Virus record (IMG/VR): IMGVR_UViG_3300034093_004605
Coordinates: 1-22,854 of that record
From: a virus
Reading direction: 5' to 3' (one strand)
DNA length: 22,854 bases
Notes under the pieces: generated by a model
What the model saw: only the letters and a program-made list of their open reading frames with translations
The model's database searches: none
What the model was told of the DNA's origin: nothing
Shown here: one piece after another, positions 2,769-19,777 of the stretch
Layout: each line of letters begins with the position of its first letter
Position numbering within the stretch: the first letter of the stretch is position 1
Position numbers and translations under genes: made by a program

Positions 2769-2961
2769 AACATCTAAAAATATAGATTTAAAATTACATG
2801 CTGAACATTGTATAGATGTATTAAATAATGTAAAATTATCTCTGATGGATTCATTTAAAGAATATGAATGTTTAGATAAACAGAAAGATTGTTTAAATAA
2901 ACTAAACATATTTAATCAGAGTTCAGATATATTAAAAGATGTTTTTAAAATTGAAAAGTAA
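2761..2961 (+). CDS. Small unrecognised protein, 66 aa
   Basis: A short, probably helical protein with three cysteines (HCIDV, YECLD, KDCLN) that do not form an evident metal site. It overlaps the preceding gene by 8 bases and ends 4 bases before the ATG of the next. Placement within a run of overlapping same-strand genes is the main support for it being real. No function can be offered. Confidence 0.6.
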   Translation: MNKTSKNIDLKLHAEHCIDVLNNVKLSLMDSFKEYECLDKQKDCLNKLNIFNQSSDILKDVFKIEK

Positions 2962-2965
2962 ATAT

Positions 2966-3388
2966 ATGCGTCATATAAAATTATATGAAGAATTTAAAAG
3001 AAATATTACAATAAATTCTAACAAAGAAGTGGAAATGACAGTTCGGTTTCTGTTGAAAAAAAATATAAAATCAGAGTTACTACAAAGAAAAATTAGAGAA
3101 AAATTTATTGAAAAATTAAAGCCACCCTTTAATTTCAATGATTTAACTTTTTATTCATTTGATATAGATTTTATATCTAATGTTCCATATAAAGGCAAAT
3201 TAATTGCTTCAGAGTATGCTATAAAATCAAAAGTAGCATTTAGTTCAGATGCTCCAACAAACAAAAAAGACTTAGATAACTTAATCAAAGAAGGAATATA
3301 TCAATTCTTAAGATTAGAAGAAGATACATATTTTTCAGATGAAGTAGAATTAACATCCGTTGTAGCATTTGAGTTTAAAAACTCTTGA
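2966..3388 (+). CDS. Unrecognised protein with MRHIKLYEEF N-terminus, 140 aa
   Basis: An earlier in-frame ATG at 2939 exists, but I chose 2966 because it gives the N-terminus MRHIKLYEEFKRN. That matches the MKYIKLFENY start of the gene at 5994 and a pattern common in large phages. It also removes a 23-base overlap with the previous gene. The body has a basic central part (residues about 30-58) and a strand-rich C-terminal half ending V-E-L-T-S-V-V-A-F-E-F. No family recognised. Its stop lies 3 bases from the stop of the oppositely oriented terminase gene, with no terminator between them. Confidence 0.72.
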   Translation: MRHIKLYEEFKRNITINSNKEVEMTVRFLLKKNIKSELLQRKIREKFIEKLKPPFNFNDLTFYSFDIDFISNVPYKGKLIASEYAIKSKVAFSSDAPTNKKDLDNLIKEGIYQFLRLEEDTYFSDEVELTSVVAFEFKNS

Positions 3389-3391
3389 TAT

Positions 3392-5170
3392 TTATGACAT
3401 CATTCTATAAATGTCTGCCATATTTTTAATACCATATGTATTATCAGGTGCCATGTTTTCTAATTTTTTATTTATTTCTTTTTTATATCTATCTTGAACC
3501 CCTTCATTCCAAATTTCACTAATACAGTCTGGAAATACATTAGATTTAAAGAAAGCCATAAGATTGACTGTACTCATAGCTAAATCATCATGTCCCCTTT
3601 CATTTGAATATGTCCCTGCTTCATTGACTCCAAAAGTTGTAAATTCAGATATTGTTAAATCATGTGTAAGAATAATTCGTCTTGATTTAAAAGTAGGTCT
3701 AAAATCTTCACAATATATTCTTTTTAATTGATTATTTAATTTGATACCAGGTTTAAATACCTTATCATCTGATTTATGTTTTGTAGTAACAAAAAGCTCA
3801 GAAAAGAATTCTTCATGTTGAGACATAAGTTCTACAAAATAATTACCATTGTAATTCATTTCAAGAACTATTTTAACTCTTTCTTCTCCGAGTATATCAT
3901 AAACTACAGCATTTACAATTTTTACAAAATCAGCTATTGACGCAGTATTCGATCTAAAAACTCCAATTTGTTTTAAACCAAAAAAATCAACTTCACCTGA
4001 ATATAATTTATGTCTTCTTATAGCACCCATACTTAAAGGTACTAATTGAAATATATTTAATATAGTGTAATCTCTATTTGCACCTTCAGCTAAATCAATT
4101 GAAATAACAAAATAACGTTTTCCTAATCTAAATTTTCCATTACTATTTTTATAATCAAATTCAAAATTTTTACTCCATACTAAATCTTTATATTGTATAT
4201 CTTGATCATGAAGTGAATCAATTTCTCTAAATTCATAGGATTGCTCACATCGCTTTGAAAAAGAAATAGATTGTGTATCTAGTAAAAAAGAAGAGCTAGC
4301 AATAAATTGATTTCCAAATTCTTGATTAAATGCTTCTTCGCTTCCCAAATCATTTATCCATTTTTGTTTCCATGCTTCATCCCTACCAGGAACTTGCCAC
4401 CAATCAACCCTTAAATCTTTGAAGTCACTTTTTCTTTTGAGAGCAGAATCATATATTTCATAAAAAAGATTTAAACCATTTGCAGTAGATGTTATCAACA
4501 TCTTAGAATCTTTCACAGCAGATAATGTAGGTAAAATTGATTTATAAAAAGACCTAGCAATTTTTTCAGGTATGTATGCAAACTCATCGGCAAAAATAAC
4601 ATCGAATGTAAAACCAATAGCTGGTGATTCAGTACACGCTTCAGCAAATATTCTACATCCATTATCAAATGCCATTTTTCCCATATTATTAACAATAGAC
4701 CCAGGTTTCATAAAAAATGGTAAATGACGAATTATAGTTTTCGTTTTATCTAAAATTTCTTCGGATGTAGCTCTTCTGTTAGCAATAACTAACACATTTT
4801 TATCCATATGAAAACATACGTACCATGCCAAAAATATACAAGTAGTAATTGTTTTTCCAATCTGTCTAGATGCTAATAATACCACACGATCATTATCAGC
4901 ATAAGACTTAATAACCTTTTCTTGATAATCCCTTAGTTTTATTCTTTGAACGCCATTATCTGTTTTTGCAAAACAATAATTATTAGCAAAGTAAATAATA
5001 TCTCTTTGACATTTAATAATCTCTTCTAATTCTTCTTGAGTATACTCAAAAGCAATTTTAGCAGCTCTCCAATCTGTATCCCCATCTGCAAATGGGTTTT
5101 GTCTAGGGATAGCTTCTCCATGTGTTATTCTATCGAATAAATCATGTACACTTTCTGTACTCCAAGCCAT
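3392..5170 (-). CDS. terL: Terminase large subunit (T4 gp17 type)
   Basis: The DNA-packaging motor ATPase and nuclease of tailed phages. It docks on the portal, pumps DNA into the prohead and cuts concatemers. At 592 residues it has the usual length. Visible motifs: Walker A-like SRQIGKT (101-107), Walker B V-I-F-A-D-E (191-196; D195, E196), coupling motif T-S-T (227-229) followed by ANGLN, and the RNase H-fold nuclease with S-I-D-L-A-E-G (D359), V-L-E-M-N-Y-N-G (E437) and G-H-D-D-L (D528/D529). These correspond to T4 gp17 residues D401, E458 and D542. All key residues are present, so it should be active. It is the only leftward gene in the window, tail-to-tail with the gene ending at 3388 and head-to-head with the gene at 5230. 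No small terminase, portal or capsid gene is nearby. Confidence 0.97.
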   Translation of the reverse strand: MAWSTESVHDLFDRITHGEAIPRQNPFADGDTDWRAAKIAFEYTQEELEEIIKCQRDIIYFANNYCFAKTDNGVQRIKLRDYQEKVIKSYADNDRVVLLASRQIGKTITTCIFLAWYVCFHMDKNVLVIANRRATSEEILDKTKTIIRHLPFFMKPGSIVNNMGKMAFDNGCRIFAEACTESPAIGFTFDVIFADEFAYIPEKIARSFYKSILPTLSAVKDSKMLITSTANGLNLFYEIYDSALKRKSDFKDLRVDWWQVPGRDEAWKQKWINDLGSEEAFNQEFGNQFIASSSFLLDTQSISFSKRCEQSYEFREIDSLHDQDIQYKDLVWSKNFEFDYKNSNGKFRLGKRYFVISIDLAEGANRDYTILNIFQLVPLSMGAIRRHKLYSGEVDFFGLKQIGVFRSNTASIADFVKIVNAVVYDILGEERVKIVLEMNYNGNYFVELMSQHEEFFSELFVTTKHKSDDKVFKPGIKLNNQLKRIYCEDFRPTFKSRRIILTHDLTISEFTTFGVNEAGTYSNERGHDDLAMSTVNLMAFFKSNVFPDCISEIWNEGVQDRYKKEINKKLENMAPDNTYGIKNMADIYRMMS

Positions 5171-5198
5171 AAAAATAGGTTAATTTTATCTATATAGT

Positions 5199-5207
5199 GA
5201 TATATAC
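5199..5207 (+). promoter_or_regulatory. GATATATAC element, candidate late promoter
   Basis: GATATATAC lies 22 bases upstream of the ATG at 5230, in the 59 bp divergent gap between terL and that gene. The same GATATATA(C/G) string occurs in three other intergenic gaps (14274, 18178, 19812). It resembles the T4 late promoter TATAAATA in size and composition. An overlapping TATATAG just upstream (5191-5197) could serve the leftward terL gene. The role is inferred. Confidence 0.45.
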
Positions 5208-5229
5208 TTCATAAACAAAAAAAAGCAGA

Positions 5230-5994
5230 ATGAGAAAACATATAAAACCATTTCTACCTGAAATTTATACAATCAAAGAAGATTCATACATAGATCTTGA
5301 AAATGATACATATAAACAAAACAAAGAAGAAGTATTACTGAATACAGATAAATTGAAACAATTAAAAAATACACATAAAGATTTATTTGTTAAAAACATT
5401 GAATTGAACCTTAAACATGCCTTAGAAATGTATTGGAAAACCAAAAAAGAAAACGAAAACATTATCTTAGAGGCAAAAGAAAGACTAGATATGAATTTTA
5501 AAAATATGCTTTATGAATTCGAAAATGCTATTCAAAAAATGGATAAATTAGGTATAGATATCAAAAACAATGAAGTAGAATTAGAAGAATTAACTTTAGT
5601 GCTTAGAATTGAAGAAAAAATGTATGAATTGACAGATAAAGATAAGATTGAATTATATGACATCTTTGTAAGTCTTAATAAAGCACATGCCGACGCATGT
5701 AAAGATTTAGCAAAAAGTATGAATGCTATAAGTGAGGTAATTAAATACACAGAGTTTGGAGTATACTACAAAAAACCTGAGGGAGCTAAGCGACATAAAG
5801 AAGCGTATTTTAGAAGTGAAATAACAACTCCAGTAAAAGAATCAAATAACATTAATGAGTCATTTGTATCAAATATATTTGACTTCTTTAAATCGGTTGG
5901 AGAAAAAATAAAAAATTATGTTTTTAGTATAGAAACTAGTTTAGATGTATTTGATGATCTTATGTTAAGAGCCAAAAATATAGTAAAATCATAA
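5230..5994 (+). CDS. Unrecognised coiled-coil protein, 254 aa
   Basis: No family recognised. Residues about 30-170 are strongly helical and charged, with long heptad-like stretches that suggest an extended coiled coil. This is followed by a loop with Y-Y-K-K-P-E-G-A and then an amphipathic C-terminal helix, I-F-D-F-F-K-S-V-G-E-K-I-K-N-Y (about residues 217-231). There is no signal peptide or clear membrane span. A GATATATAC element 22 bases upstream suggests late expression and so perhaps a virion or assembly role. The stop overlaps the ATG of the next gene by one base (TAATG), pointing to translational coupling. Confidence 0.75.
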   Translation: MRKHIKPFLPEIYTIKEDSYIDLENDTYKQNKEEVLLNTDKLKQLKNTHKDLFVKNIELNLKHALEMYWKTKKENENIILEAKERLDMNFKNMLYEFENAIQKMDKLGIDIKNNEVELEELTLVLRIEEKMYELTDKDKIELYDIFVSLNKAHADACKDLAKSMNAISEVIKYTEFGVYYKKPEGAKRHKEAYFRSEITTPVKESNNINESFVSNIFDFFKSVGEKIKNYVFSIETSLDVFDDLMLRAKNIVKS

Positions 5995-6722
5995 TGAAGT
6001 ATATTAAGCTTTTTGAAAATTACAATTCTGGATTAGAAAATTTCTTAATTTATAAGTATAAATTACACTGGGTAGCTAAGGTTAAAAGAAATATTTTTGC
6101 TAGTAGTGTAGAACAAGAAAATATAGAGAAGGCTTTATCAGAGTGGAAATACACAAACAATTGTGTAGTAACTGAAGATGCTGTATGTGAGTTATGCGGT
6201 CAAACAAATTTATATTATCATTTTCAAATTAAAAACTCTATAAAAGATAATGAACTTTGGATTGGTAGTGAATGTATAAAAAGATTTAGTGCAGAAGATA
6301 CTAAATCTATTCAGTTTTTTGATAATTATGGAAATAGAATAACAGATGAAAGAGTCATTATAAAGATTGTAAATAAAGAAATGGTTAGCTTGAAAAAAGA
6401 TAAAAAAATTCAAGAAGTATTAGAATTACTTTCAAATCTAATTAACAAAACTCAAGAATCAAATTTAAATCATCTGTTTGATGAATATTCAAATAAAGAG
6501 TATTTTAGTCCACTACAAATGCTTTGGCTAGATAACTATTTTTTAGAGAATAATATAGAAGTGAATTATCATATATTTAATGTCAATATAAGTAATAGAT
6601 TTTATTTGGATCAAATATTTACAAGAAGTTCAGATTCAATAAATAGACTAGAAAAATATTTAACAAGAGATCAGAAAGAAATTGTACAGTATAATCTGCA
6701 AAGAAAAAAAAGATTAGAATAA
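5994..6722 (+). CDS. CELCG / GSEC cysteine-motif protein, possibly zinc-binding, 242 aa
   Basis: The N-terminus is MKYIKLFENY, the same type as the gene at 2966. Residues 65-97 read C-E-L-C-G (C65, C68), then W-I-G-S-E-C-I-K-R-F (C94). I recognise this pattern from uncharacterised phage and bacterial proteins in which a CxxC knuckle and a later GSEC pair frame a short beta hairpin, probably as a small zinc ribbon. A fourth ligand is not clear: C57 or H76 are candidates. The C-terminal 130 residues are helical with no recognised motif. It is coupled by a TAATG overlap to the coiled-coil gene upstream and followed 3 bases later by the ankyrin gene. Confidence 0.72.
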   Translation: MKYIKLFENYNSGLENFLIYKYKLHWVAKVKRNIFASSVEQENIEKALSEWKYTNNCVVTEDAVCELCGQTNLYYHFQIKNSIKDNELWIGSECIKRFSAEDTKSIQFFDNYGNRITDERVIIKIVNKEMVSLKKDKKIQEVLELLSNLINKTQESNLNHLFDEYSNKEYFSPLQMLWLDNYFLENNIEVNYHIFNVNISNRFYLDQIFTRSSDSINRLEKYLTRDQKEIVQYNLQRKKRLE

Positions 6723-6725
6723 ATA

Positions 6726-7160
6726 ATGAAATCACTTATAAAATATGATTTTTTTTCTAGATATTTTAAAGGGAATGAATCAAAGAAATATATACTGTTA
6801 AAAGGTCTTATTGAATCCAACGATGTAAATACTTTAAAATTTCTTCTTGATAAAAAAGACGAAATAGAGTTTATTTCAAAATTTGCAGGTGATACTTTGC
6901 TTCATCATGCTTGTTATGTAGGCTACATAGAAATGGTACAACTATTATTAAACTACAATGTAGTAGATATAAATGAATTAGATTACGTATTAAGAACTCC
7001 TTTGCATACGGCAATTAAATTTGGTCATACAAATATAACAGATTACTTAATAAGTAAAGGAGCAGACACATCAATTCGAGACATCAAATCAACTATACCT
7101 TTAAAATCTGCAATAGAAAGAAGATCAGGAAAAATAATTGAACTTTTAGTAAAAAAATGA
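6726..7160 (+). CDS. Ankyrin-repeat protein, 144 aa
   Basis: Ankyrin repeats are protein-binding helix-turn-helix modules. Here residues 54-84 (G-D-T-L-L-H-H-A-C-Y-V-G-Y-I-E-M-V-Q-L-L-L) and 88-119 (R-T-P-L-H-T-A-I-K-F-G-H, then L-I-S-K-G-A-D) are clear repeats. Residues about 22-50 and 120-144 look like degenerate capping repeats. There is no membrane or signal segment and no fused effector domain. The N-terminus (MKSLIKYDFFSRYF) is basic and aromatic and distantly like the MKxIKLFE starts of nearby genes. The target is unknown; phage ankyrin proteins are few, and binding of a host protein is an inference. It is the third gene of the cluster starting at 5230. Confidence 0.85.
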   Translation: MKSLIKYDFFSRYFKGNESKKYILLKGLIESNDVNTLKFLLDKKDEIEFISKFAGDTLLHHACYVGYIEMVQLLLNYNVVDINELDYVLRTPLHTAIKFGHTNITDYLISKGADTSIRDIKSTIPLKSAIERRSGKIIELLVKK

Positions 7161-7213
7161 TATATTAGTAAATAAACCTTTTAATTTTAATTATTAAAAC
7201 TATATGGAGTTAA

Positions 7214-7501
7214 ATGATGGGTAATGTAGAACATAAAGTATGGCATGAAATAACTGAGCCATTGAGTGCTGTTCAGAATTTAATTAACGGTTGTTTACTT
7301 GGACAATCAAAAGGATCTTATTCTTTTGAAGAATCAAGTCTTATTTGGGAATCTATAAAGTATCTTGTTACCTTGCAAGTTCAGATAAGAGAGAATGAAG
7401 AAGATCCAAATGACTTTTTAATGAAAGAATTAGCCAAAACAGAAAAAAATGAAATTGTAGAAAACATTGAACATGACATAAAAGAAAAAGAAACAGCATA
7501 A
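7214..7501 (+). CDS. Small acidic protein, 95 aa, unrecognised
   Basis: Helical and strongly acidic toward the C-terminus (ENEEDPNDF, then a K/E-rich tail). No family recognised. Two ATG codons lie in tandem at 7214 and 7217. A GGAG at 7206-7209 is 4 bases from the first and 7 from the second, so 7217 may be the true start. A Shine-Dalgarno-like leader is uncommon in this window. A clear intrinsic terminator follows directly after the stop, so this gene ends its transcription unit. The 53 bp gap upstream includes GATATATTAG near 7149-7158, a relative of the GATATATA(C/G) element. Confidence 0.72.
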   Translation: MMGNVEHKVWHEITEPLSAVQNLINGCLLGQSKGSYSFEESSLIWESIKYLVTLQVQIRENEEDPNDFLMKELAKTEKNEIVENIEHDIKEKETA

Positions 7502-7503
7502 AG

Positions 7504-7531
7504 AAAAGCCCACATAATTGTGGGTTTTTTT
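7504..7531 (+). terminator. Intrinsic terminator after the small acidic gene
   Basis: CCCACA (7509-7514) pairs with TGTGGG (7519-7524) around a TAAT loop. The stem extends through AAAAG/TTTTT and runs into a seven-T tract (7525-7531). It ends the 5230-7501 cluster and isolates it from the polymerase transcript. Confidence 0.88.
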
Positions 7532-7559
7532 GTTTTTATCTAAATTTTTATTATCTTTG
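7529..7559 (+). promoter_or_regulatory. Bacteroidetes-type housekeeping promoter TTTG-N19-TATCTTTG
   Basis: TTTG (7529-7532) and TATCTTTG (7552-7559) are separated by 19 bases. This fits the -33 TTTG / -7 TAnnTTTG consensus recognised by the primary sigma factor of Bacteroides and Flavobacterium (established knowledge). Transcription would start near 7566, about 20 bases before the polymerase ATG at 7588. The TTTG overlaps the terminator T tract. The element suggests early, host-polymerase transcription of the polymerase-GT pair. Confidence 0.72.
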
Positions 7560-7587
7560 CATATTATAATTATTAAGTATTACATTT

Positions 7588-9015
7588 ATGATAAATATAG
7601 AACAAAAGGCAAATAAAGTTACAATTAGCAATTTTAATGAAAAGGGTATGGTTGAATTATATGAATTTCAATTACATCGAAATGATATATTCGTTTGGGA
7701 ATATTATTCAAGTCGAAAAAAAGAAGAACATTTTAAAAGTTGGGATGATAGAGCAGTTCAAAAAAATACAGCTCCCAGTTATAAAAGACTGAATAGATTT
7801 CGTTTAATAGAATGGATGGAAAGTCTTACGGAAGAAGAAAAATCAAAGATTTATACATTTAATCAACCCAAAAAATTCTTTTGCGATATAGAAGTTGAAA
7901 TTCAAGATGAGTTTCCTGACCCTGCTGAAGCTAAAACTCCTGTCGTTACTATAGCATTATCCGATCAAGATAATATAATAACAGTTTTAGGAATTAAAGA
8001 AGTATCTTTAAATGATATCAAAAAAACAGAATTAAAGCTTCAAGAATATTTTAAAGATTATACACCAAATATAAAGTTTAAATATATCTATTTCAATTCA
8101 GAATATGATATGTTATATACATTTTTTATTAAATTTTTACCAAGAATTCCTTTCTTAACAGGCTGGTATTTCTTAGATTTTGATTGGAAATATTTAATAA
8201 ATAGAGCAAGAAAATTTAATATTCCAGTAGAAAAGTCATCTCCTACAAATAAACTAATAGGTTTACATGAAACACCAATGCATAAAGTTATTGTTGATTA
8301 TAAGGAGATTTATGAAAAGTGGGATAAATCACTTAAAGAAAACTTAACTTTAGATTGGACTGCAAAGTATAGGCTAGGTTTAACAAAAGTAAAGTATCCA
8401 GGAAGTCTTAAAGATTTATATTTAAATGATTATTTATTATTTGTATTCTACAATGCTGTTGATACTCATCTTGTTAACTTATTAGACAAAAAAACATCAG
8501 TTGCAGACATATTCTTTAAACTAGGAACTCTAACAAAATCAGAATATCAAAAAGCATTTTCACCAGTTCATATGACTGAAAATGTTCTTTGTAGAGGGCT
8601 ATTAGAAAAAAACCTCGTTATGATCCCAAATGAAATTAAAAATACAAAGGATTCTAAATATAAAGGAGCACACGTACATAAACCTAAAGTAGGTATTTAT
8701 GAATATGTTTGTGCTTTTGATTTTGCAAGTTTGTATCCATCAGTTATGCGACAATTCAATATTTCTCCAGAATCATACTTGGGAAAACTTGGAGAAGAAG
8801 AAGATCAAAGTATATTTAAAGTACAAAAGAAAAAAATAGAAAATATAGAAGAAAAAATAGTTTGTGCAAATGGAGCTATATTTGATACGAATGAAAGTGT
8901 ATTAAGGAAGGTACTTGATTATTTCTACGATAAAAGAAAAAAAGCTAAATTAGAGTCCTATGAAATTGAAAAAGAAATAGATGTATTAAAAAAGATTCTA
9001 GAAACAAAAAAATGA
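7588..9015 (+). CDS. 43: Family-B DNA polymerase, N-terminal half only (T4 gp43 type)
   Basis: The replicative polymerase of T4-type phages: an N-terminal domain, a 3'-5' proofreading exonuclease, then palm, fingers and thumb. Seen here: exonuclease motif I C-D-I-E (D100, E102), followed by a T4-like FPDP; exo II T-G-W-Y-F-L-D-F-D (D199); exo III Y-N-A-V-D (Y288, D292); and polymerase motif A F-D-F-A-S-L-Y-P-S (D378). The protein then continues only to residue 475, inside the fingers. Motif B (KxxxNSxYG), motif C (DTDS) and the thumb are absent here and in the following 15 kb on either strand. T4 gp43 is 898 residues. The stop sits in an ATGA overlap with the next gene. This is either one half of a split polymerase, as known in some T4 relatives, or a retained exonuclease fragment. 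Confidence 0.93.
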   Translation: MINIEQKANKVTISNFNEKGMVELYEFQLHRNDIFVWEYYSSRKKEEHFKSWDDRAVQKNTAPSYKRLNRFRLIEWMESLTEEEKSKIYTFNQPKKFFCDIEVEIQDEFPDPAEAKTPVVTIALSDQDNIITVLGIKEVSLNDIKKTELKLQEYFKDYTPNIKFKYIYFNSEYDMLYTFFIKFLPRIPFLTGWYFLDFDWKYLINRARKFNIPVEKSSPTNKLIGLHETPMHKVIVDYKEIYEKWDKSLKENLTLDWTAKYRLGLTKVKYPGSLKDLYLNDYLLFVFYNAVDTHLVNLLDKKTSVADIFFKLGTLTKSEYQKAFSPVHMTENVLCRGLLEKNLVMIPNEIKNTKDSKYKGAHVHKPKVGIYEYVCAFDFASLYPSVMRQFNISPESYLGKLGEEEDQSIFKVQKKKIENIEEKIVCANGAIFDTNESVLRKVLDYFYDKRKKAKLESYEIEKEIDVLKKILETKK

Positions 9016-9701
9016 AAAAAAACTGTGTTATACTTACAACTACATCTAAGGGTGAAGGTTTAAATAATTACACATGTTCAGGTTACGATTTTGATTTATT
9101 TATAATAGATTATACTTCTTCCCCAAAACAGAGTCCATTAGTAAATAGTAATGCAAAATTTGTTTTTGAATCTGAGGGTGGATATAAATATCATAATATA
9201 AAGAGATTATTAAATACAACTACTATATTAGACGATTATGACTATGTCTGGCTTCCAGATTGGGACTTATCTTTCAATTGTTTAGATCTACATACACTTT
9301 TTACAATAGCTGAGCAATATGATTTAGATTTATGTCAGCCATCACTAAGCTCGGATTCCTATATTTCCTGGACTATAACTCAACATAATCCAGAATTAAC
9401 CTTAAGAATCACGAATTTTGTAGAAGTAATGTGTCCACTATTCAAAAGTTCCTTTTTAAAAGAATTACTTTGGACCTTTGATTTGAATTTTTCTAGTTGG
9501 GGACTTGACTTTTTATGGTCTTCTCTTCTAAAAGAACATACATTTGGAATTATTGATGCAATGATTATAAAACATGAAAGGCCTATACAATCTCATGAAT
9601 GGTTATTGCCAAATAATAAGACTGCTCATCAAGAACTAGAAGAGATGAAGAAAAAACATAATTTAGTTTTTAATCCTATTGTGTTTAAAGCATTGAAATA
9701 A
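9012..9701 (+). CDS. DUF707-like putative glycosyltransferase, 229 aa
   Basis: The central region matches my recollection of the DUF707 family (GT-A-like fold, mostly uncharacterised). D-Y-V-W-L-P-D-W-D-L-S (residues about 77-87) supplies a DxD-type metal motif. L-C-Q-P-S-L-S-S-D-S-Y-I-S-W follows near 112-125, then F-V-E-V-M-C-P-L-F near 139-147 and W-G-L-D-F-L-W near 172-178. The expected role is transfer of a sugar to an unknown acceptor; phage glycosyltransferases often modify DNA bases, virion proteins or host surface glycans. The start overlaps the polymerase stop (ATGA), so the two are translationally coupled, which is odd for unrelated functions. No signal or membrane segment is present. 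The family call is moderately sure; the substrate is unknown. Confidence 0.75.
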   Translation: MKKNCVILTTTSKGEGLNNYTCSGYDFDLFIIDYTSSPKQSPLVNSNAKFVFESEGGYKYHNIKRLLNTTTILDDYDYVWLPDWDLSFNCLDLHTLFTIAEQYDLDLCQPSLSSDSYISWTITQHNPELTLRITNFVEVMCPLFKSSFLKELLWTFDLNFSSWGLDFLWSSLLKEHTFGIIDAMIIKHERPIQSHEWLLPNNKTAHQELEEMKKKHNLVFNPIVFKALK

Positions 9702-9879
9702 AGCTACTTATAAAAGCAAAAAAATGATTAAAAAAAATTAATCAAAAAAATAACATTTATTAGTTTTTTAGTAAACAAAAATTATCTATATAGCTATAAC
9801 AAATATTCACAAGTATTGAGTTTAGACTATAAAACTAGTATTTAATCTCCATTTATTATAAAATTAAACAGTATTTATT
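9702..9879. promoter_or_regulatory. Intergenic leader of nrdJ, 178 bp, very AT-rich
   Basis: This gap probably carries the nrdJ promoter. It holds a GATTAA/TTAATC inverted repeat (9726-9743), and a perfect 10 bp palindrome TATAGCTATA (9789-9798) that overlaps CTATATAG and could be an operator. I see no TAnnTTTG -7 box, no Shine-Dalgarno before the ATG and no cobalamin riboswitch. The palindrome is real; any regulatory role is inferred. Confidence 0.4.
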
Positions 9880-12060
9880 ATGGCAAAAAGTCGTGATCTC
9901 TCAATTGAGATTTTATCAGAATTAACAGCATTTTCTAAATATGCACGTTTTAATGAGAAACTAGGAAGAAGAGAAACATGGGAAGAAAATGTATATCGAG
10001 TTGAAGATATGCATGTGAGAAAATTTCCTGAACTAAAAGATGATATCAATAGAGCATTTGATTATGTAAGACGTAAAGAAGTTGTACCTTCCATGCGTTC
10101 AATGCAATTCGGAGGAGAAGCTATTGAAAAAATGAATATAAGAATTTTTAACTGCTCATTTATTGCTATAGAACGACCAGCCATATTTTCAGAAATTATG
10201 GTTTTGTTGATGGCAGGAACAGGAGTTGGTTATTCTGTCCAATATAGACATATTAATAAGTTACCTGAAATTAAAACTCCTAAAAGAAGTAAGAAGTATG
10301 TTATTGAAGATACGATTGAGGGATGGGCTAATTCTTTAAAGGCTCTTATTAAATCTTATTTTTATGGTACACAATTACCAATATTTGATTATTCTCAAAT
10401 CAGAGCTAAAGGAACTTCTTTAAAGACATCAGGTGGAAAAGCACCTGGTCCTGAACCGTTAAGAAAATGTTTAGACGAAATTCAATCTATATTTACATGC
10501 AAGAATGTTGGAGAGAAGTTAAAACCTATAGAAGTACATGATATTGTTTGCCATATAGCAGATTGTATTTTAGCTGGTGGAATTCGTAGATCAGCTACTA
10601 TAGCATTATTCGATTCATTTGATGATGAGATGCTTAACTGTAAAGGATATGTATCAGCACAAATTGAATCTGATTTTATTTATAATAAACAAACAAAACA
10701 ATTTGTTGGGGATGCAGCACACCAAGGTAAAATTGTTCAAGTATATTTATCAAAACAAGAATTTGATAAATTTGAAAAAGAGGGTGTATTAGCATGGTAT
10801 TGGTTTCATCCGCAAAGAGCAAGAGCAAATAACTCTGCGGTCTTTATCCGTAAAATATTTTTAGATAAAGAAACAACAGAAGAAAAAATAATCGCAAAAC
10901 TTAAAAAAGAATTTGGTATAAATGATTATTCACAAGAATCATTAGTAAATACATTCACAAACTTTGTAAGTGAATATTTATCAGCACATTCAGTTGAAGG
11001 TAAATATTATGAAGATATTGTAGAAGCAACAACGCAAGAAGATTTTATGAAAGTTTGGAAAGCTTGTGAAGCTTCAGGTTCAGGAGAACCTGGTGTTTTT
11101 TGGACAAATGATCCTGATTATGGAACAAATCCATGTGGAGAAATATCACTTAAATCAGCTCAAACTTGTAATCTTTCTTCTATAAATGTAAGTACATTAA
11201 GAGATCAATCTGATTTAGAACAAAGAGTATGGGCTGCTACATTGATTGGTACTCTCCAAGCAACATATGATAGTTTTGAGTATATTTCAGAAAATTGGCA
11301 AGAAAACCAGCAAGATGAAAGATTACTTGGAGTTTCATTAACAGGTATATGCGATATAGACTATACTAAGTTTGATTGGGAAAAGGCTTCTTTATTTACA
11401 GCTGAAGTGAATAGTACATATGCACAGATACTAGGTATTAATGAAGCTGCTAGAATTACTTGTATAAAGCCAGAAGGTACAGCATCTTGCGTTATGGGTA
11501 CAGCATCAGGTATTCATGCAAGACATGCTCAACATTATATTAGAAGAGTTCGTTATAATAAGCAAGAACCTATAGCTAGATATCTTATGGAAAACCATCC
11601 AGAGTTAGTAGAAGAAGAGGAATTCAATCCATTGAACATTGTAGTAGCACTTCCTCAAAAGTCTCCTTCAGAGTCCGTAACAAGAGAAAATGAAACTGCT
11701 ATTGACACATTAGAAAGAGTAAAATTTTTTAATGAACATTGGGTTTCACCAGGTCATAGATATGGTCCAAATCAGCATAATGTATCTTGTACTATTTCAG
11801 TTCGTAATAACGAATGGAATAAAGTAGGAAAATGGATGTGGGAAAATAGAGAGGTATATTCAGGTATTGCGGTTCTACCTTATTCAGATGCTAATTATAA
11901 ACAAGCTCCTTTTGAGGAATGTGATGAAGAAACTTATGATTCAATGATGAAAAATCTAAAATCAATTGATTTAACAAAAGTATTAGAATTAGAAGATAAT
12001 ACAAATCTCTTAGGAGAACTTGCATGTGCTGGTGGTGCATGTGAAGTTACTTTCGGATAA
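9880..12060 (+). CDS. nrdJ: Class II (adenosylcobalamin-dependent) ribonucleotide reductase
   Basis: Reduces ribonucleotides to deoxyribonucleotides using a cysteinyl radical generated from coenzyme B12, so it needs no oxygen and no second subunit. At 726 residues it matches the monomeric triphosphate reductase type (Lactobacillus leichmannii). Seen: N-C-S-F (C92, first redox Cys), M-A-G-T-G-V-G-Y-S-V (111-120), G-G-I-R-R-S-A-T (233-240), N-P-C-G-E-I (N417, C419 thiyl, E421), Q-T-C-N-L (C430, second redox Cys, 11 residues from C419 as in the reference enzyme), P-E-G-T (531-534) and a C-terminal C-x4-C (C716/C721) for re-reduction. All catalytic residues are present. Residues about 327-386 seem to be extra relative to the family core. 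The gene stands alone with its own terminator. T4 itself uses class I NrdAB. Confidence 0.95.
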   Translation: MAKSRDLSIEILSELTAFSKYARFNEKLGRRETWEENVYRVEDMHVRKFPELKDDINRAFDYVRRKEVVPSMRSMQFGGEAIEKMNIRIFNCSFIAIERPAIFSEIMVLLMAGTGVGYSVQYRHINKLPEIKTPKRSKKYVIEDTIEGWANSLKALIKSYFYGTQLPIFDYSQIRAKGTSLKTSGGKAPGPEPLRKCLDEIQSIFTCKNVGEKLKPIEVHDIVCHIADCILAGGIRRSATIALFDSFDDEMLNCKGYVSAQIESDFIYNKQTKQFVGDAAHQGKIVQVYLSKQEFDKFEKEGVLAWYWFHPQRARANNSAVFIRKIFLDKETTEEKIIAKLKKEFGINDYSQESLVNTFTNFVSEYLSAHSVEGKYYEDIVEATTQEDFMKVWKACEASGSGEPGVFWTNDPDYGTNPCGEISLKSAQTCNLSSINVSTLRDQSDLEQRVWAATLIGTLQATYDSFEYISENWQENQQDERLLGVSLTGICDIDYTKFDWEKASLFTAEVNSTYAQILGINEAARITCIKPEGTASCVMGTASGIHARHAQHYIRRVRYNKQEPIARYLMENHPELVEEEEFNPLNIVVALPQKSPSESVTRENETAIDTLERVKFFNEHWVSPGHRYGPNQHNVSCTISVRNNEWNKVGKWMWENREVYSGIAVLPYSDANYKQAPFEECDEETYDSMMKNLKSIDLTKVLELEDNTNLLGELACAGGACEVTFG

Positions 12061-12077
12061 ATAATAAACTTTATTGT

Positions 12078-12114
12078 AAAGGATATCTATAAAGAGTGTA
12101 GATATCCTTTTTTA
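12078..12114 (+). terminator. Intrinsic terminator after nrdJ
   Basis: GGATATCTA (12081-12089) pairs with TAGATATCC (12099-12107) around a 9-base loop, extended by AAA/TTT and followed by TTTTTT (12108-12113). It makes nrdJ a single-gene unit and directly precedes the Shine-Dalgarno of the next gene. That leaves almost no room for a promoter, so read-through may feed the clamp-loader genes. Confidence 0.85.
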
Positions 12115-12127
12115 TTTGAGGTGAAAT

Positions 12128-12562
12128 ATGGAACTTTTTGATGTTGTCAATTCGATCTTTTCAAAAACAGAGTGGAAAAAAGTTTCCAGATATGATAAAG
12201 ATCGAAATTTCTTTATGATAAATAGATTTATGTCAATTGGTCTCCCTAAACAAGCTTCAATGTTTAATAAGAAACATATACCCAAAGAGCATGTTTTAGA
12301 TTATTGGAATAGAACGGCTTCGAGATTATATAGTACCATCCCATCTTGGATATTTACAAAAGGACAAGTTGCATCTCAAAAAGAGAAAGATGTAATGGAA
12401 GTAGATATAGAGCTAAAAAAAATATTTTGTGAATATAATAAATGTAGTTTCAAAGATTTTGATTTATTATGTAATATAACACCAATAGAGATTGAAGAAG
12501 AATTAAAAATGTATAGAAAAATATTACAATCACGAAAACCATCTACATTATCACAATATTAG
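12128..12562 (+). CDS. 62: Clamp-loader small subunit (T4 gp62-like)
   Basis: The small non-ATPase subunit that joins the gp44 ATPase ring to load the sliding clamp. The 144-residue protein resembles the short gp62 homologues of cyanophage-type T4 relatives: M-E-L-F-D-V-V-N-S-I at the start, then F-F-M-I-N-R-F-M-S-I (residues about 28-37) and a C-terminal helix pair with I-E-E-E-L-K-M-Y-R-K-I-L. Its place directly before the gp44 gene supports the call. The start has the best Shine-Dalgarno of the window, GAGGTGA at 12118-12124, about 3 bases from the ATG. The identity rests on a weak motif plus context; T4 gp62 itself is longer and diverged. Confidence 0.68.
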   Translation: MELFDVVNSIFSKTEWKKVSRYDKDRNFFMINRFMSIGLPKQASMFNKKHIPKEHVLDYWNRTASRLYSTIPSWIFTKGQVASQKEKDVMEVDIELKKIFCEYNKCSFKDFDLLCNITPIEIEEELKMYRKILQSRKPSTLSQY

Positions 12563-12573
12563 AGGATTATAAA

Positions 12574-13542
12574 ATGTCAAAAATACTTGAACAATTATTT
12601 ACAGAAAAGTTTAGACCCAAAAAAATAGAAGATATAATTCTTGCACCAAGAATAAAAAGTGCTATAGGCCAAGGAGTTATACAACAACATCTTTTATTAG
12701 TAGGTTCGCAAGGAATGGGTAAAACTTCTACAGCAAAGGCAATAGCAAGTAAATTTCCAAATATGTATATAAATGTATCTGATGAATCATCAGTAGATGT
12801 TATCCGTGAAAAAATAAAAGGGTACTGCGAAAGAATATCTGTATTAGATGGTGAGGATTCAATTAAGATTGTTATACTAGATGAAATAGATGGTGCTTCA
12901 GATCAATTCTATAAAGCTCTAAGAGGAGTTATGGAAGATGTGCGTTATGTATCAAAGGTACGATTTATAGGTACTGCAAATTATATTAACAAAATCCCAG
13001 ATCCAGTACGTTCACGTTTTTTTATTTTAGATTTTAACCCTGCAACAAAAGAAGAAGAACTAGGATTGATGAAAGATCAAGCCAAAAGAATAGCATTTCT
13101 TTTAAAAAGTTTAAACATAGAATTTGAAAATGATGCATTAAAGGAATTTATTAAAAGAAATTTCCCTGATATGAGAGCAATGATAAATAAAATTCAAAAC
13201 TGGCAAACATCAGGAAAAAACAAAATCACTCTAAATGAAATAAAAGATTTAAATTATTCTTTTAATGATTTATTTGAGTTGCTAACTATTAAAGATACAA
13301 ATCCTATACAAAATTATAAATATATTGTTAAAAATTGTTCAAATAAAGTAGATGAAGTTCTTATGAGCTTGCATTCTGACTTTCCTCTATGGATTTCAGA
13401 AAACAAACCTGATATGATAAACAAAATACCAATGGTACTTGTTTTAGTGGGTAAATGGCAAGCAGATAAACACGCATGTATTGATCCGATAGTAGCTTTA
13501 ACTGGTTGTTTTTTTGAAATACATATGCATATGAAATCATAA
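12574..13542 (+). CDS. 44: Clamp-loader ATPase subunit (T4 gp44-like)
   Basis: The AAA+ ATPase that opens the sliding clamp and loads it on primed DNA. Seen: E-K-F-R-P-K-K-I-E-D-I at the N-terminus (residues 11-21, the usual start of clamp-loader and RFC proteins), Walker A G-S-Q-G-M-G-K-T (44-51), Walker B I-L-D-E-I-D (101-106), sensor I G-T-A-N (133-136), S-R-F with the arginine finger (R148), and a C-terminal collar-like region to 322. Length matches T4 gp44 (319). AGAGG (12561-12565) lies 8 bases before the ATG. It follows the gp62-like gene by 11 bases and its stop overlaps the next ATG (TAATG). The clamp (gp45) and the polymerase C-terminal half are not in the window. Confidence 0.95.
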   Translation: MSKILEQLFTEKFRPKKIEDIILAPRIKSAIGQGVIQQHLLLVGSQGMGKTSTAKAIASKFPNMYINVSDESSVDVIREKIKGYCERISVLDGEDSIKIVILDEIDGASDQFYKALRGVMEDVRYVSKVRFIGTANYINKIPDPVRSRFFILDFNPATKEEELGLMKDQAKRIAFLLKSLNIEFENDALKEFIKRNFPDMRAMINKIQNWQTSGKNKITLNEIKDLNYSFNDLFELLTIKDTNPIQNYKYIVKNCSNKVDEVLMSLHSDFPLWISENKPDMINKIPMVLVLVGKWQADKHACIDPIVALTGCFFEIHMHMKS

Positions 13543-14270
13543 TGGTATCAATTAAATTATTGAATCAAGAAGTCAAATCTGTGTCTGATTTATTACTATT
13601 CAAATATATTGTAATAGATGAATCAAATGCTGTTATAGATGTATTGAAAAGATTTGAGATAGGTCCTGAACATAGGATAACAGGTTTATGTGAACCGATG
13701 TCTTACATATCACAAAACTTTATAGAATTGACCCAATATAAATCTCTAGGTTCAAAGAACAATATAGGTAGATTATCAGCCATTACAGTATTAGAAGAAC
13801 AAATAATAAAAGAGTTTTGTTTAAAAGGAATACATGCTTTAGATTTAGCCATAAAATTAGATGCGTTAGCTGTCTTTCATGCTTTACTAGATTATGGTCA
13901 TAAGGATATTAAAAGTCAGGCTGTTCATTTAGCAGTAAAATACATAAGAGTAGATATGTTGAACCGTTTAGCCGAAGAAGGATATGATTTATGGTTTGTA
14001 CATCCAGATTGGGAATCTAGACCTATTGATACTTTATTTACTATGCTTTCATTTCAAGAGGAATTACCTTTTATAAAAGGAATGAATGTAAACGAAGAAT
14101 TAGCAGAATGTTTAGATATAATAATTAAAAATAGTGAAATACATAGATTTATTTCAACAACTGGTGATGATTATAGAATATATAATGGAAATCCAATTAT
14201 AAGGAAACGTAAAGGTCTTGCACCAGAAATAGAAGAAATTTTCTTTAAAGTCATACATGGCTTATTATAA
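13542..14270 (+). CDS. Unrecognised protein with degenerate ankyrin-like repeats, 242 aa
   Basis: Residues about 97-150 read like two weak ankyrin repeats: I-H-A-L-D-L-A-I-K-L-D-A-L-A-V-F-H-A-L-L-D-Y-G, then A-V-H-L-A-V-K-Y-I-R-V-D-M-L-N-R-L-A-E-E-G. The flanking parts show no known domain. A basic patch (R-K-R-K-G) lies near residue 221. It is coupled to gp44 by a TAATG overlap, so it is made with the clamp loader, yet no replication role is evident. It is not obviously a paralogue of the ankyrin protein at 6726. The repeat call is moderate, the function unknown. Confidence 0.62.
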   Translation: MVSIKLLNQEVKSVSDLLLFKYIVIDESNAVIDVLKRFEIGPEHRITGLCEPMSYISQNFIELTQYKSLGSKNNIGRLSAITVLEEQIIKEFCLKGIHALDLAIKLDALAVFHALLDYGHKDIKSQAVHLAVKYIRVDMLNRLAEEGYDLWFVHPDWESRPIDTLFTMLSFQEELPFIKGMNVNEELAECLDIIIKNSEIHRFISTTGDDYRIYNGNPIIRKRKGLAPEIEEIFFKVIHGLL

Positions 14271-14273
14271 TTT

Positions 14274-14282
14274 GATATATAC
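14274..14282 (+). promoter_or_regulatory. GATATATAC element, candidate late promoter
   Basis: An exact copy of the nonamer at 5199. It begins 3 bases after the stop of the preceding gene and ends 27 bases before the ATG at 14310. The gap is only 39 bp, so the element fills much of it. The role is inferred from recurrence. Confidence 0.45.
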
Positions 14283-14309
14283 CTACTAAAGTAAAAAATC
14301 TCTAAAACT

Positions 14310-15908
14310 ATGCGTAATACTCAAGCTATTGTTGAAGCCATATGTAATCATACATCTTTCAAACCTGAAATTAAAACAGGATTGGTTTTTTTAAAAGAAT
14401 CAAATGTAGATATAGTACATTGGAATGCACTGAATGAGCAAGAAGAAAGAATGATATCTGATAATCCTGCGGTTATAGGTGCATTTAACAGATTTTCCTC
14501 TTCAGTTATTGGACCAGTTGTTAAATCAACACAACCAAAGTCAAATGCAGATTGGATTAAAACCACTCCCTTAACTAATCCAGACATTTTTAAAGAAAAC
14601 ACAAAAAAACAATCTGAAATTGTAAAAGATAAAGTGTATAAAGATGCACACCAGTGGGAACAAACAGGTGATCTTCAAGATACATTTAGAAACATTGAAA
14701 AACATCAAATGACTGATGCAGAAAAACTTGAGGATGAACGTAATTCAGTTGATAATACATATTTAGATATTTTGGCTCAAACAGAGAAGAAAGTTGGGAA
14801 AGAAAATATCAAGACATATATGGAGAAGATTTCTGATGATGTACAGACTTTTGTTACATTAGTAACATTACTTACAGAACAAATTGTAAAAGAAGCTTGG
14901 GTAAATTCACCTTTAACAATACAAAAAGTATTTGGAAATCGTTTATACTTCTTAGAAAATCCTGCATTAGATATAAGAACTAAAAATGTAAATGCATTTG
15001 TCAAAGAAGCTTCGACTGTTTTAAAATTAGCTTTTGATGTTAGTAGTTATTTTGTTTTACAGAATGCAAATGAAGATATACAAAAATCTGTTACAGAAAT
15101 ATGGCAAGATGCAAAAACAGAAACAAGAAAGAAGTTAGATGCAACTCCAATTCCTAAACCAGTTAAGACTATGTTTGCTTTTAATGAAGAAGTTTCTGAC
15201 AATTTTATTACTGAATTAACGAATGCAGTTTGGGAATCTATACCATCTTTGATTGAAACACACGGAGATGATTTCTTTTTAATCATAGAATCACAAACTA
15301 TCCTACCTATTAATGATGCTTTTAATAGTTCAAGATTCCAAAGTTACCATCCATTATTTGAATCTATGTACTATCAATTACAAAGTAAAAAGCCTTTTAA
15401 TTGGTTTTTAGAACTTGAAAAAGTTTTAGTTGATGATAAAGAAATAGAAAAAAATCTTACATATTGTGCAACCGAATTAGTGAAACAGCAATTGGCTAAT
15501 AATGCTGACTATCTGTTTCCAACAGTTGGAAAAGTAGCAGGATTCACCGCACATAAGTTATTACTAGATGCTCAAAACACTGAAGATGGTCTGAGTGAAC
15601 TTTTAGGAGTAAAAGACTCATTATGGATAACATCAGGATATGTACCAGGTACTTTAGGCTTAATTTTATTATTATTTAATGTTGCATCAGCTATGTTATT
15701 TGTAGCATATGCAGAAGACATTGTAGGATTCGATTTAGACAAAGCAAATCCTGAATTAGCAGAACTTCCAATTTGGCAAGCATTTAAAGAAAGTGCATTT
15801 GATTTAAAAGTTGAATATGAAAATAAAAGAACTCAACTTACTCAGCAACAAAAAATCGAAACAACTTCACCAAGAAGTGCAGTACAAACAGGTATAAAAA
15901 TTAAGTAA
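14310..15908 (+). CDS. Unrecognised large protein with one membrane-like segment, 532 aa
   Basis: No family recognised. The N-terminal 150 residues are polar and Asn/Gln/Lys-rich with helical stretches. The middle is mostly helical. Near the C-terminus, residues 449-468 form an unbroken hydrophobic stretch (L-G-L-I-L-L-L-F-N-V-A-S-A-M-L-F-V-A-Y-A) flanked by charged residues, which could be a membrane span or a buried helix. The tail is Gln/Thr/Lys-rich and probably disordered. A candidate late promoter lies directly upstream and baseplate genes follow 3.5 kb later. A virion or injection role is therefore possible but unproven. Codon use matches the neighbours. Confidence 0.78.
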   Translation: MRNTQAIVEAICNHTSFKPEIKTGLVFLKESNVDIVHWNALNEQEERMISDNPAVIGAFNRFSSSVIGPVVKSTQPKSNADWIKTTPLTNPDIFKENTKKQSEIVKDKVYKDAHQWEQTGDLQDTFRNIEKHQMTDAEKLEDERNSVDNTYLDILAQTEKKVGKENIKTYMEKISDDVQTFVTLVTLLTEQIVKEAWVNSPLTIQKVFGNRLYFLENPALDIRTKNVNAFVKEASTVLKLAFDVSSYFVLQNANEDIQKSVTEIWQDAKTETRKKLDATPIPKPVKTMFAFNEEVSDNFITELTNAVWESIPSLIETHGDDFFLIIESQTILPINDAFNSSRFQSYHPLFESMYYQLQSKKPFNWFLELEKVLVDDKEIEKNLTYCATELVKQQLANNADYLFPTVGKVAGFTAHKLLLDAQNTEDGLSELLGVKDSLWITSGYVPGTLGLILLLFNVASAMLFVAYAEDIVGFDLDKANPELAELPIWQAFKESAFDLKVEYENKRTQLTQQQKIETTSPRSAVQTGIKIK

Positions 15909-15912
15909 AATA

Positions 15913-16497
15913 ATGTCTAAACAAAATATTATACTTAGTGAGGGTAAAGTTAATGAGCCACATACAAAAGAAGCCCCAATTGTACTACAATCTATAAATT
16001 GTAAAGCTTTATTTAATAACACAAATAAAACAATAACAATAGAAGTACCTAATGGAGATATATTTGTATCTTCTGCCTCTGCATTTAAATGGGTAGAAGG
16101 TTATCCTAAAAGTATAGGTCTATCACATAAAAGATGTGAGACGGCACTTAATCACTTGATGAATGATAATTTTATTGATGCATATAAAGAGATTTATAAG
16201 TTGCCATATGCTCCTTTTTTTGTATATTTGTTTGAAACAGATAGACCAATGTTGAAAAACTTATCGTATATTACTGATAAAACAAATGAAACTAATAAAG
16301 AAAAAGTTGAAATTTTTATTAAAACGATGATAGAAGAAAAAGAGGAATCTACTAATTTAAAAAAGTCTGATCCAGAAACATATAATTTTATAAAAAAAAC
16401 ATTAGAAAATCAGATATTATATCTAAAAGCTAAATGCGAGGTATTTTACTGGTTTTATCAAGGTCTTCCACAACTTTCTCAATTTGGAATATGGTAA
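15913..16497 (+). CDS. Unrecognised protein, 194 aa
   Basis: No family recognised. A strand-rich N-terminal part (C-K-A-L-F-N-N-T-N-K-T-I-T-I-E-V-P-N-G-D-I-F-V-S) is followed by helices rich in Lys and Glu and an aromatic C-terminus (V-F-Y-W-F-Y-Q-G-L-P-Q). There is no signal or membrane segment. It starts 4 bases after the large unknown gene and ends 1 base before the next ATG, so it probably belongs to the same transcript that starts near 14282. Confidence 0.74.
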   Translation: MSKQNIILSEGKVNEPHTKEAPIVLQSINCKALFNNTNKTITIEVPNGDIFVSSASAFKWVEGYPKSIGLSHKRCETALNHLMNDNFIDAYKEIYKLPYAPFFVYLFETDRPMLKNLSYITDKTNETNKEKVEIFIKTMIEEKEESTNLKKSDPETYNFIKKTLENQILYLKAKCEVFYWFYQGLPQLSQFGIW

Positions 16498-16498
16498 T

Positions 16499-16798
16499 AT
16501 GAGTCAAATACGAAGTTTTGTACTGGGAACTCCAGTAAAAATGTCATGCAAAAAAGATGTAAATAAAACTAACCAAATATTTGCTAAGGTTTTATGTTCA
16601 AATTTAAAAGATGAACATTATTATAGTTGTATTACACCACATGGATCGATTTTCAAAACTCATTTTTCTAATTTACACGAGTTAATAGATGAGTCTGAAC
16701 TTTCAATTTTGAAAGAGTTAGAGAATAACTCAAAAGATTTACAAAACACTATTTATAATAATATATTTACTACCTATTACAATTCTGGAAATCATTAA
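16499..16798 (+). CDS. Small unrecognised protein, 99 aa
   Basis: The start is the ATG at 16499, one base after the preceding stop. An in-frame TTG at 16484 would overlap that gene and is less likely. The protein has a strand-rich N-terminal half (S-F-V-L-G-T-P-V-K-M, then I-F-A-K-V-L-C) that could be a small beta barrel, and a helical acidic C-terminus. It abuts the nuclease gene (TAAATG). No family recognised. Confidence 0.66.
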   Translation: MSQIRSFVLGTPVKMSCKKDVNKTNQIFAKVLCSNLKDEHYYSCITPHGSIFKTHFSNLHELIDESELSILKELENNSKDLQNTIYNNIFTTYYNSGNH

Positions 16799-17920
16799 AT
16801 GTTATATGTTCTTGTTGATGCAAATAATTTCTTCATAAAAAATCTCTTTGCATATAAAAGTGGTATGCGTAAGACAGATAAATTATTTGAAAAAGAAGAA
16901 CAAATAATAGAATATTCTCACATATTAAGCAATTCCATATTTCATTTATTAGAAAAGTTTGAAGGTAAAGTAGGATTTATACTTTGTTTTGATAACAAAA
17001 CATGGCGCAAGTCCTATTATAATTTATACAAAGCACATAGAGAATATGATGATGCTGTAAATTGGGAAGCATATTTTAACTTTGTAGAAGATTATTGTGG
17101 AAAAATTACGAACCTGCATAACATCAATGTATCCAAAATTGAAGGTGGTGAAGCTGATGATTTATTGTATTTATGGTCAAAAAAGCTTAATAGCTCAGGA
17201 TTTGATTGTGTGATAGTTAGTGAAGATAAAGATCTTTTACAGTTAGTTAGAAATACTTCAAAAAATAATTTTACAATAGTTTATAATAACTCATTTAAAA
17301 ATCCTAAAGTATATAAACATCCAGATACTAATTTAAAAGAAGATAATATAAAGTTTGATATATTTAATGCGTCAGATTCTCTATTAAATTCTAGAGTTCT
17401 TGTAAAATGGATTATTCAAGAAGCTGAAGCATTAGAAGACATCGATTTAGAGTATTATTTACTCAAAAAGATACTTATTGGAGATGATGGAGATAATGTA
17501 CCTTCAGTTTGGACATGGGAAATTAAGCCAGGTAAAAAAAAGAGAGTTACTCCATCTATTGCAGATAAAATAATAACAAATTATTTAACAATTAATGAAA
17601 AACCAATTTATTATCTTTTAAATGATTTTGAATTTTTTAAAACATCTCTAGCGGATTCTATTAAATTTATTTTAGGAATACAAATAGATGTAGAGGAATT
17701 AAAAAACAGTATAGAACGGAATTGTAATCTAATGTGTTTACATCATAATTTCATGCCTAAATCTCTTTTAAAAGAATTTCAAAAAAATTACGATGAAACT
17801 ATTGTAGGTAAACTTGAACGTGATACTTTTCTTAAAGGTACTAAATATTTTCAAGATACTAGAGCCAAAGTAGGAAAAATGGACAAACTTGATTCATTTT
17901 TTAATTCATTTGGTGGTTGA
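16799..17920 (+). CDS. rnh: RNase H / 5'-3' flap nuclease (T4 rnh-like)
   Basis: A FEN-family nuclease that removes RNA primers and 5' flaps from lagging-strand fragments. Seen: L-V-D-A-N-N (D7), L-C-F-D-N-K-T-W-R-K (D65), G-G-E-A-D-D-L (E118, D120, D121), S-E-D-K-D-L-L-Q-L (D143, D145) and I-G-D-D-G-D-N-V-P-S-V (D229, D232), the same order and spacing as T4 rnh. All metal-binding acids are present. At 373 residues it is longer than T4 rnh (305). The extra length includes residues about 155-215 between the fourth and fifth motifs. Some T4-type phages place rnh away from the polymerase, as here. It overlaps the next gene by one base (TGATG). Confidence 0.93.
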   Translation: MLYVLVDANNFFIKNLFAYKSGMRKTDKLFEKEEQIIEYSHILSNSIFHLLEKFEGKVGFILCFDNKTWRKSYYNLYKAHREYDDAVNWEAYFNFVEDYCGKITNLHNINVSKIEGGEADDLLYLWSKKLNSSGFDCVIVSEDKDLLQLVRNTSKNNFTIVYNNSFKNPKVYKHPDTNLKEDNIKFDIFNASDSLLNSRVLVKWIIQEAEALEDIDLEYYLLKKILIGDDGDNVPSVWTWEIKPGKKKRVTPSIADKIITNYLTINEKPIYYLLNDFEFFKTSLADSIKFILGIQIDVEELKNSIERNCNLMCLHHNFMPKSLLKEFQKNYDETIVGKLERDTFLKGTKYFQDTRAKVGKMDKLDSFFNSFGG

Positions 17921-18144
17921 TGAAAAGGTTTTCAGTATATGTAAAAATAAAAGGTAAATATACCGAAATATTATTAGCAGAAGGTGTTCAATTTAATAAT
18001 GAAAATATAGCTATTCATGAATTTTTAACATCTACAATTTTAATATTAGACAATATAGATTCAGTATATAGTCATTATTCTATTATTGGAACTATAAGAA
18101 TTAATTGGTTAGATGTAAACATCTATGACAAAAAAATAAATTAA
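17920..18144 (+). CDS. Small unrecognised protein, 74 aa
   Basis: Starts at the ATG overlapping the nuclease stop by one base (TGATG). The sequence is mostly beta strand with alternating hydrophobics (F-S-V-Y-V-K-I-K-G-K-Y, I-L-I-L-D-N-I, I-I-G-T-I-R-I-N-W-L-D-V-N-I-Y), as in a small OB-like or beta-sandwich fold. No cysteine motif, signal or family is recognised. It closes the 14310-18144 cluster. Confidence 0.65.
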   Translation: MKRFSVYVKIKGKYTEILLAEGVQFNNENIAIHEFLTSTILILDNIDSVYSHYSIIGTIRINWLDVNIYDKKIN

Positions 18145-18177
18145 TTCTAAAAATTTTAAAAAAATAATTTTCATTGC

Positions 18178-18186
18178 GATATATAG
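18178..18186 (+). promoter_or_regulatory. GATATATAG element, candidate late promoter
   Basis: This is the one member of the GATATATA(C/G) set ending in G. It lies 44 bases upstream of the ATG at 18231, in an 86 bp gap between an upstream replication-type gene and the S1-like/gp25 pair. A weak Shine-Dalgarno (AAGGA, 18219-18223) sits 7 bases before that ATG. Confidence 0.45.
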
Positions 18187-18230
18187 TGAAGTTATAAAAT
18201 TAATTATTTCTCACTTGCAAGGAAAACAAT

Positions 18231-19385: not shown

Positions 19386-19386
19386 T

Positions 19387-19749
19387 ATGGCTATAAGTGA
19401 AATATATTGTAAATTGTCTACAGATCCTTTCTTTGAATCAGATAGGTTAGAAGTAACTAATGATATTGAAGCATTAATCGAAAAAATTAGAATGATTATG
19501 TTTACAAGAAAGGGAGATATTTTAGGAGAACCTGAATTCGGAGTAGATTTGGAAAGATATATTTTTGAAACGTTTTTTGATAGAGGAGCGATTAACTCTG
19601 AACTTAATAATCAACTTGCAAGATATATTCCAGAGTACAATACATTTAATGTTAGTACAAGCGTTAATATTTCAAAGGGAGAATACAGAGATAATATAAT
19701 CATAGATATATTTATAAATCAAGACAAAGTACTTGGTTTTGTAATTTAA
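19387..19749 (+). CDS. 25: Baseplate wedge protein gp25 (GPW/gp25 family)
   Basis: A small lysozyme-fold-derived wedge component that anchors the sheath and baseplate in contractile tails. At 120 residues it has the family length. Seen: an N-terminal region leading to I-E-A-L-I-E-K-I-R-M-I-M-F-T-R-K-G-D with the conserved T-R-x-G-(E/D), then G-E-P-E-F-G-V-D-L (residues about 46-54) and L-E-R-Y-I-F, the hallmark E-P-x-F-G motif. It begins 1 base after the S1-like gene and is followed by a strong terminator, then gp6. Adjacency of gp25 and gp6 is common in T4-type phages outside the coliphages. Confidence 0.93.
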   Translation: MAISEIYCKLSTDPFFESDRLEVTNDIEALIEKIRMIMFTRKGDILGEPEFGVDLERYIFETFFDRGAINSELNNQLARYIPEYNTFNVSTSVNISKGEYRDNIIIDIFINQDKVLGFVI

Positions 19750-19777
19750 CAAAGGGGTCGGTTTCGACCCCTTTTTT
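19750..19777 (+). terminator. Strong intrinsic terminator between gp25 and gp6
   Basis: AAAGGGGTCG (19751-19760) pairs with CGACCCCTTT around a GTTT loop and runs into TTTTTT (19772-19777). The GC-rich core makes it the strongest terminator in the window. It separates two baseplate genes that must be made in fixed ratio, so gp6 needs its own promoter, and the element at 19812 is the candidate. Confidence 0.93.

Follow-up and report, generated by a model that had tools for sequence, protein, structure and literature searches.

The locus described here raises the question of whether a phage DNA polymerase gene that stops in the middle of the fingers domain encodes a broken enzyme or one part of a working one. 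The window, that is the whole stretch of DNA analysed (22,854 nucleotides, IMG/VR record IMGVR_UViG_3300034093_004605), corresponds to the entire record and is a 22.9-kb metagenomic fragment; on its + strand an ORF of 475 aa extends from position 7588 to 9015, with a TGA stop at 9013-9015. According to the original prediction, the exonuclease and motif A of this polymerase are intact, the frame ends at residue 475 in the fingers region, and the catalytic half is missing.

The comparison with protein families and alignments agrees with the first part of this description. On the basis of its sequence, the ORF can be assigned to the N-terminal (gp43A-like) part of a T4-type family B DNA polymerase, and the 475-aa protein comprises the N-domain, an intact 3'-5' exonuclease, the palm motif A, and the first fingers helix. 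Indeed, Pfam recognizes the exonuclease (PF03104) at residues 98-213, and PF00136, whose sole match in the window is this ORF, is covered only at profile positions 17-137 of 453, that is over the first third of the domain. The protein fits phrog_2062 nearly from end to end (6-499 of 502, E 3.2e-75), and a profile of 37 N halves aligns onto RB69 gp43 at about residues 97-504. The catalytic residues are invariant or nearly so across the N halves; they include the exonuclease motif I, D100-I-E102 (7885-7893, invariant in the sets of 11 and 37 aligned N halves, with the residues checked), the exonuclease acids D199 (8182-8184) and D292 (8461-8463), and the polymerase motif A, DFASLYPS (residues 378-385, with D378; 8719-8742), all of them on the + strand. 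The gene is constrained at the protein level, with dN of about 0.12-0.16 versus a saturated dS.

For the N half AlphaFold2 gave a good model (pLDDT 85, pTM 0.80), and the structures that match it best are RB69 gp43 chains. The last long helix (residues 438-474; 8899-9009, + strand) is read as the first fingers helix from the modelled secondary structure and from the RB69 alignment, which reaches about residue 504, and the protein would terminate at the tip of this helix. Around motif A (residues 351-379 and 405-412) the confidence of the model falls, which would make sense if this region of the palm depended on the other half. Thus, exonuclease and motif A are present in a gene that ends within the fingers domain, which is the anatomy of the first gene of a split T4-type polymerase. 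Motifs B and C had been reported as absent from the window on either strand, and a six-frame scan for NSxYG/KxxxxSxYG and DTDS likewise gave no match in it.

Before any biological meaning is given to this end, it must be asked whether it is real. A stop at 9015 might arise in a full-length polymerase gene through a chimeric assembly or a frameshift in sequencing; the end was seen in a single fragment, and a run of seven A (9004-9012) lies immediately before the stop. The original prediction had itself named an error at about position 9000 as a possible refutation. Such an error is excluded, and the explanation already refuted, by an independent contig, L006/G005, recovered from another sample: it matches window positions 3274-22054 (18.8 kb), stop included, with 99.97% identity. 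In addition, four more contigs, 77-81% identical in the N-half protein, have their stop at the homologous codon, in each of them the same gene follows with the same ATGA overlap, and motifs B and C are absent from every frame of the window. Of all the explanations considered here, an artefact is therefore the one to which we give the least credit, at the very margin of what is conceivable. As for the A run, a -1 slip on it would enter the frame of the next ORF. We rejected a frameshift joining the N half to that ORF, since the run occurs in L004 and L005 and is absent from L002 and L003; it is probably a matter of chance in DNA of 28% GC.

The next gene is a DUF707 (glycosyltransferase-like) ORF (9012-9701, + strand; PF05212, E 4e-11), whose start overlaps the polymerase stop (ATGA) and which occupies the same place in G001-G004. 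It had been suggested that this gene replaces the second half of the polymerase; it is instead a neighbour, and in the outgroups examined ribonucleotide reductase genes follow the N half, with the C half coming later. In the window a ribonucleotide reductase large-chain gene with a match to the B12-dependent (class II) insertion domain lies downstream of the polymerase half (9880-12060). Further on, a gp44-like clamp-loader gene, belonging to the same replisome, is found at 12574-13542 (+ strand; phrog_168, E 6e-54), and the fragment ends within a gene of collagen-like (NQG) repeats (21582-22853, + strand) whose ORF runs off the end. The same repeats are present at the end of G001 and at the start of G023. 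The contigs of this clade break at these repeats, and this is why the polymerase halves lie on separate records.

Where, then, is the second half? In the closest outgroups, with N halves 41-45% identical, a C half is found further along the same strand, in most of them 11-14 kb downstream; in those with readable flanks the order is clamp, polC, RecA/UvsX-like (clamp and RecA being named from sequence and context). Among the near relatives, contig G003 extends 31.5 kb past its N half and breaks off inside a clamp gene; this clamp fragment led to contig L222, which carries the sliding clamp (3833-4618), a C half of 411 aa with KIFINSVYG and GDTDS (4608-5843), and RecA (5850-7133). The overlap between L222 and G003 is 99.88% identical over 4,162 bp; therefore, the two halves belong to one phage and lie on the same strand at a distance of about 32.3 kb. 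The proposed search for a protein with a KxxxNSxYG-type motif and DTDS was successful in L222 and negative in the window; what had been described as the missing catalytic half is encoded, in near relatives, between the clamp and RecA genes some 32 kb downstream.

Samples in which N halves of the clade occur yielded three further C halves, sharing 76-85% identity with the one in L222; this gives the same-sample pairs G004/G022, G001/G023, and L007/L228. On the G003 map the contig ends of G004 and G022 are about 31 bp apart, G001 and G023 meet in the collagen-like repeats, and the N-to-C distance is near 32 kb for both pairs. Since the window ends in the same collagen-like repeats, we infer that its own C half should lie roughly 19 kb past the end of the fragment. 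The AlphaFold2 model of the C half alone was weak (pLDDT 73, pTM 0.46), and structural claims based on it were dropped.

One might argue that the C half has disappeared from this lineage, leaving the N half as a stand-alone exonuclease, while another polymerase copies the genome. Indeed, no C half is present in the window, nor was one detected by PF00136 and single-sequence searches in the 200-kb contig G001, the largest of the relatives. A real loss in G001 was dropped as an explanation once the clamp and RecA genes, neighbours of the C half elsewhere, proved to be missing there too; the contig is incomplete, which would explain the absence of its C half. Against a loss in the lineage, clade C halves occur in three samples that also hold clade N halves, one C half is tied to its N half by the 99.88% overlap, and motif A and the fingers helix, which an exonuclease alone would not need, are kept under selection. 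A loss is thus largely refuted, and we regard it as very improbable.

Based on this evidence, we are highly confident that the ORF at 7588-9015 is a complete gp43A-like subunit and that a gp43B-like partner, with which it most likely forms one polymerase, is encoded about 32 kb downstream. This partner would have about 411 aa and contribute the second fingers helix with motif B, as well as motif C and the thumb; its gene, past the end of the fragment, would lie between those of the sliding clamp and RecA/UvsX, on the same strand. The two proteins would be translated separately and most likely assemble noncovalently at the tip of the fingers to give one working polymerase-exonuclease; we propose this two-chain assembly because of the precedent of phages 25 and 44RR. 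Three points count against this explanation, namely that the partner was seen in relatives whose N halves are 77-81% identical and not in the window's own species, that the 200-kb contig G001 is without it, and that the C half by itself is predicted to fold poorly. A partner at the equivalent place in the window phage is to be taken as a strong expectation from its relatives, and the joint work of the halves as likely.

The split is by no means restricted to this clade. Profile searches over the collected loci revealed 114 ORFs with the N half only and 120 with the C half; a single gene, that of Flavobacterium phage MaF61, was full-length. The same break is common to more than 100 environmental loci. 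Where both halves are present, the C half is on the same strand and 1.8-9.2 kb downstream in 69 of 69 loci (some contigs having been fetched twice), and the relatives examined have ribonucleotide reductase-like ORFs, recognized from sequence, between the two. The pairwise distance matrices of N and C halves correlate (r 0.95-0.96), as expected of a jointly inherited pair, although shared phylogeny contributes to this value, which alone is no proof of contact. Both halves are under strong purifying selection, with dN of about 0.08-0.17 versus dS above 1.2, the latter being near saturation. A different arrangement was observed in the huge-phage records LR756504, LR756502, and LR745206, where the halves are more than 100 kb apart and on opposite strands, which is not so in the window clade.

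A further way of making one enzyme from two genes is protein splicing. In LR756500, Prevotella phage Lak-B2, L108, and G020 an apparent split intein breaks the second half in two at YxDTD|S. The pieces lie at L026:284-1225 and 2914-3684 in LR756500, with a homing-endonuclease gene between them, and at L027:2073-3047 and 5025-5837 in Lak-B2; the Pfam family Intein_splicing passes the cut-off on both N-side pieces, and the C-side match of Lak-B2 is below it. In these two phages the polymerase would therefore come from three genes. The C halves at L127:9986-11635 and L219:1501-3237 are longer single ORFs (549 and 579 aa), in which a contiguous intein probably occupies this DTD|S site. In LR756500, moreover, the gene directly after the polymerase N half (L013:6413-8356, ATGA overlap) shares its matches to the DUF7487/MTES_1575 nuclease-like families with the homing endonuclease found within the second half.

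These observations might suggest that in the window clade, too, the halves are joined after translation into one chain by a split intein placed between N and C. However, the relatives have their intein at another joint, and L222, whose C half begins directly with polymerase sequence, has none; the fingers helix is the last element of the window's N half, no intein sequence comes after it, and Pfam gave no intein match on this protein. With neither of the facing ends carrying intein sequence, we rejected a splicing of N to C, which appears even less probable than the loss of the C half, if a little less remote than an artefact. Coming back to the noncovalent two-chain enzyme, we moderately favour a broader picture, in which a large and mostly uncultivated group of T4-related and huge phages would depend on an obligate multi-chain replicative polymerase, with genes that have drifted to distances of 3 kb to more than 100 kb and in some cases onto opposite strands; in some members three genes would be involved, the fingers-tip joint being noncovalent and the DTD|S joint sealed by a split intein.

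The "missing" half is thus an effect of the fragment boundary, and the arrangement is an ordinary one, not that of a defective enzyme. Known from work on a few Aeromonas phages, the replicative polymerase in two genes is common in environmental phages; therefore, a phage fragment from which one half has been recovered can look polymerase-deficient. How a split replicative polymerase assembles could also be studied with the help of the conserved break and of the natural separation of the genes over a long distance.

Concerning known systems, the gp43 of RB69 and T4 has the same fold and catalytic motifs but is a single polypeptide. Rhodothermus phage RM378 also has a family B polymerase in two genes, the cut separating the exonuclease from the polymerase domain. 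The split Pol III subunits described in jumbo phages (PMC7824862) were rejected as a parallel, this being a different enzyme. Another case is Chryseobacterium phage MA9V-2 (about 29-30% identity in the N half), in which the N half is followed by a few genes, including one of the TnpB family, and then by a C half annotated as DNA polymerase family B, the halves being 3.5 kb apart. The original comparison with the split gene 43 of T4-type phages holds: in the Aeromonas phages 44RR2.8t and 25, as in the window clade, a T4-type family B polymerase is encoded in two genes (43A/43B). In 44RR the N fragment has 498 aa and 43B 391 aa, the N part ending at RB69 residue 511 and the C part beginning at about 514-519; here the N halves reach about residue 504 by profile, plus a few more residues, and the C halves align from about 531, so that the break falls at the fingers tip in both, within a few residues in RB69 coordinates, and the domain content of each half is the same. 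The two differ in that the genes are adjacent in 44RR and about 32 kb apart here, and the identity between the 44RR N part and the window protein is low (about 23%). The polymerase halves of phage 25 reportedly co-purify and polymerise DNA (PMC2988022), so that function has been demonstrated for that phage. Both halves correspond to families already held in PHROGs, phrog_2062 for the N half and phrog_1918 for the C half; the C halves of the relatives match the latter, and the window protein fits the former with no difference found. The two-gene polymerase is therefore of an already known kind, to which the window phage adds a member.
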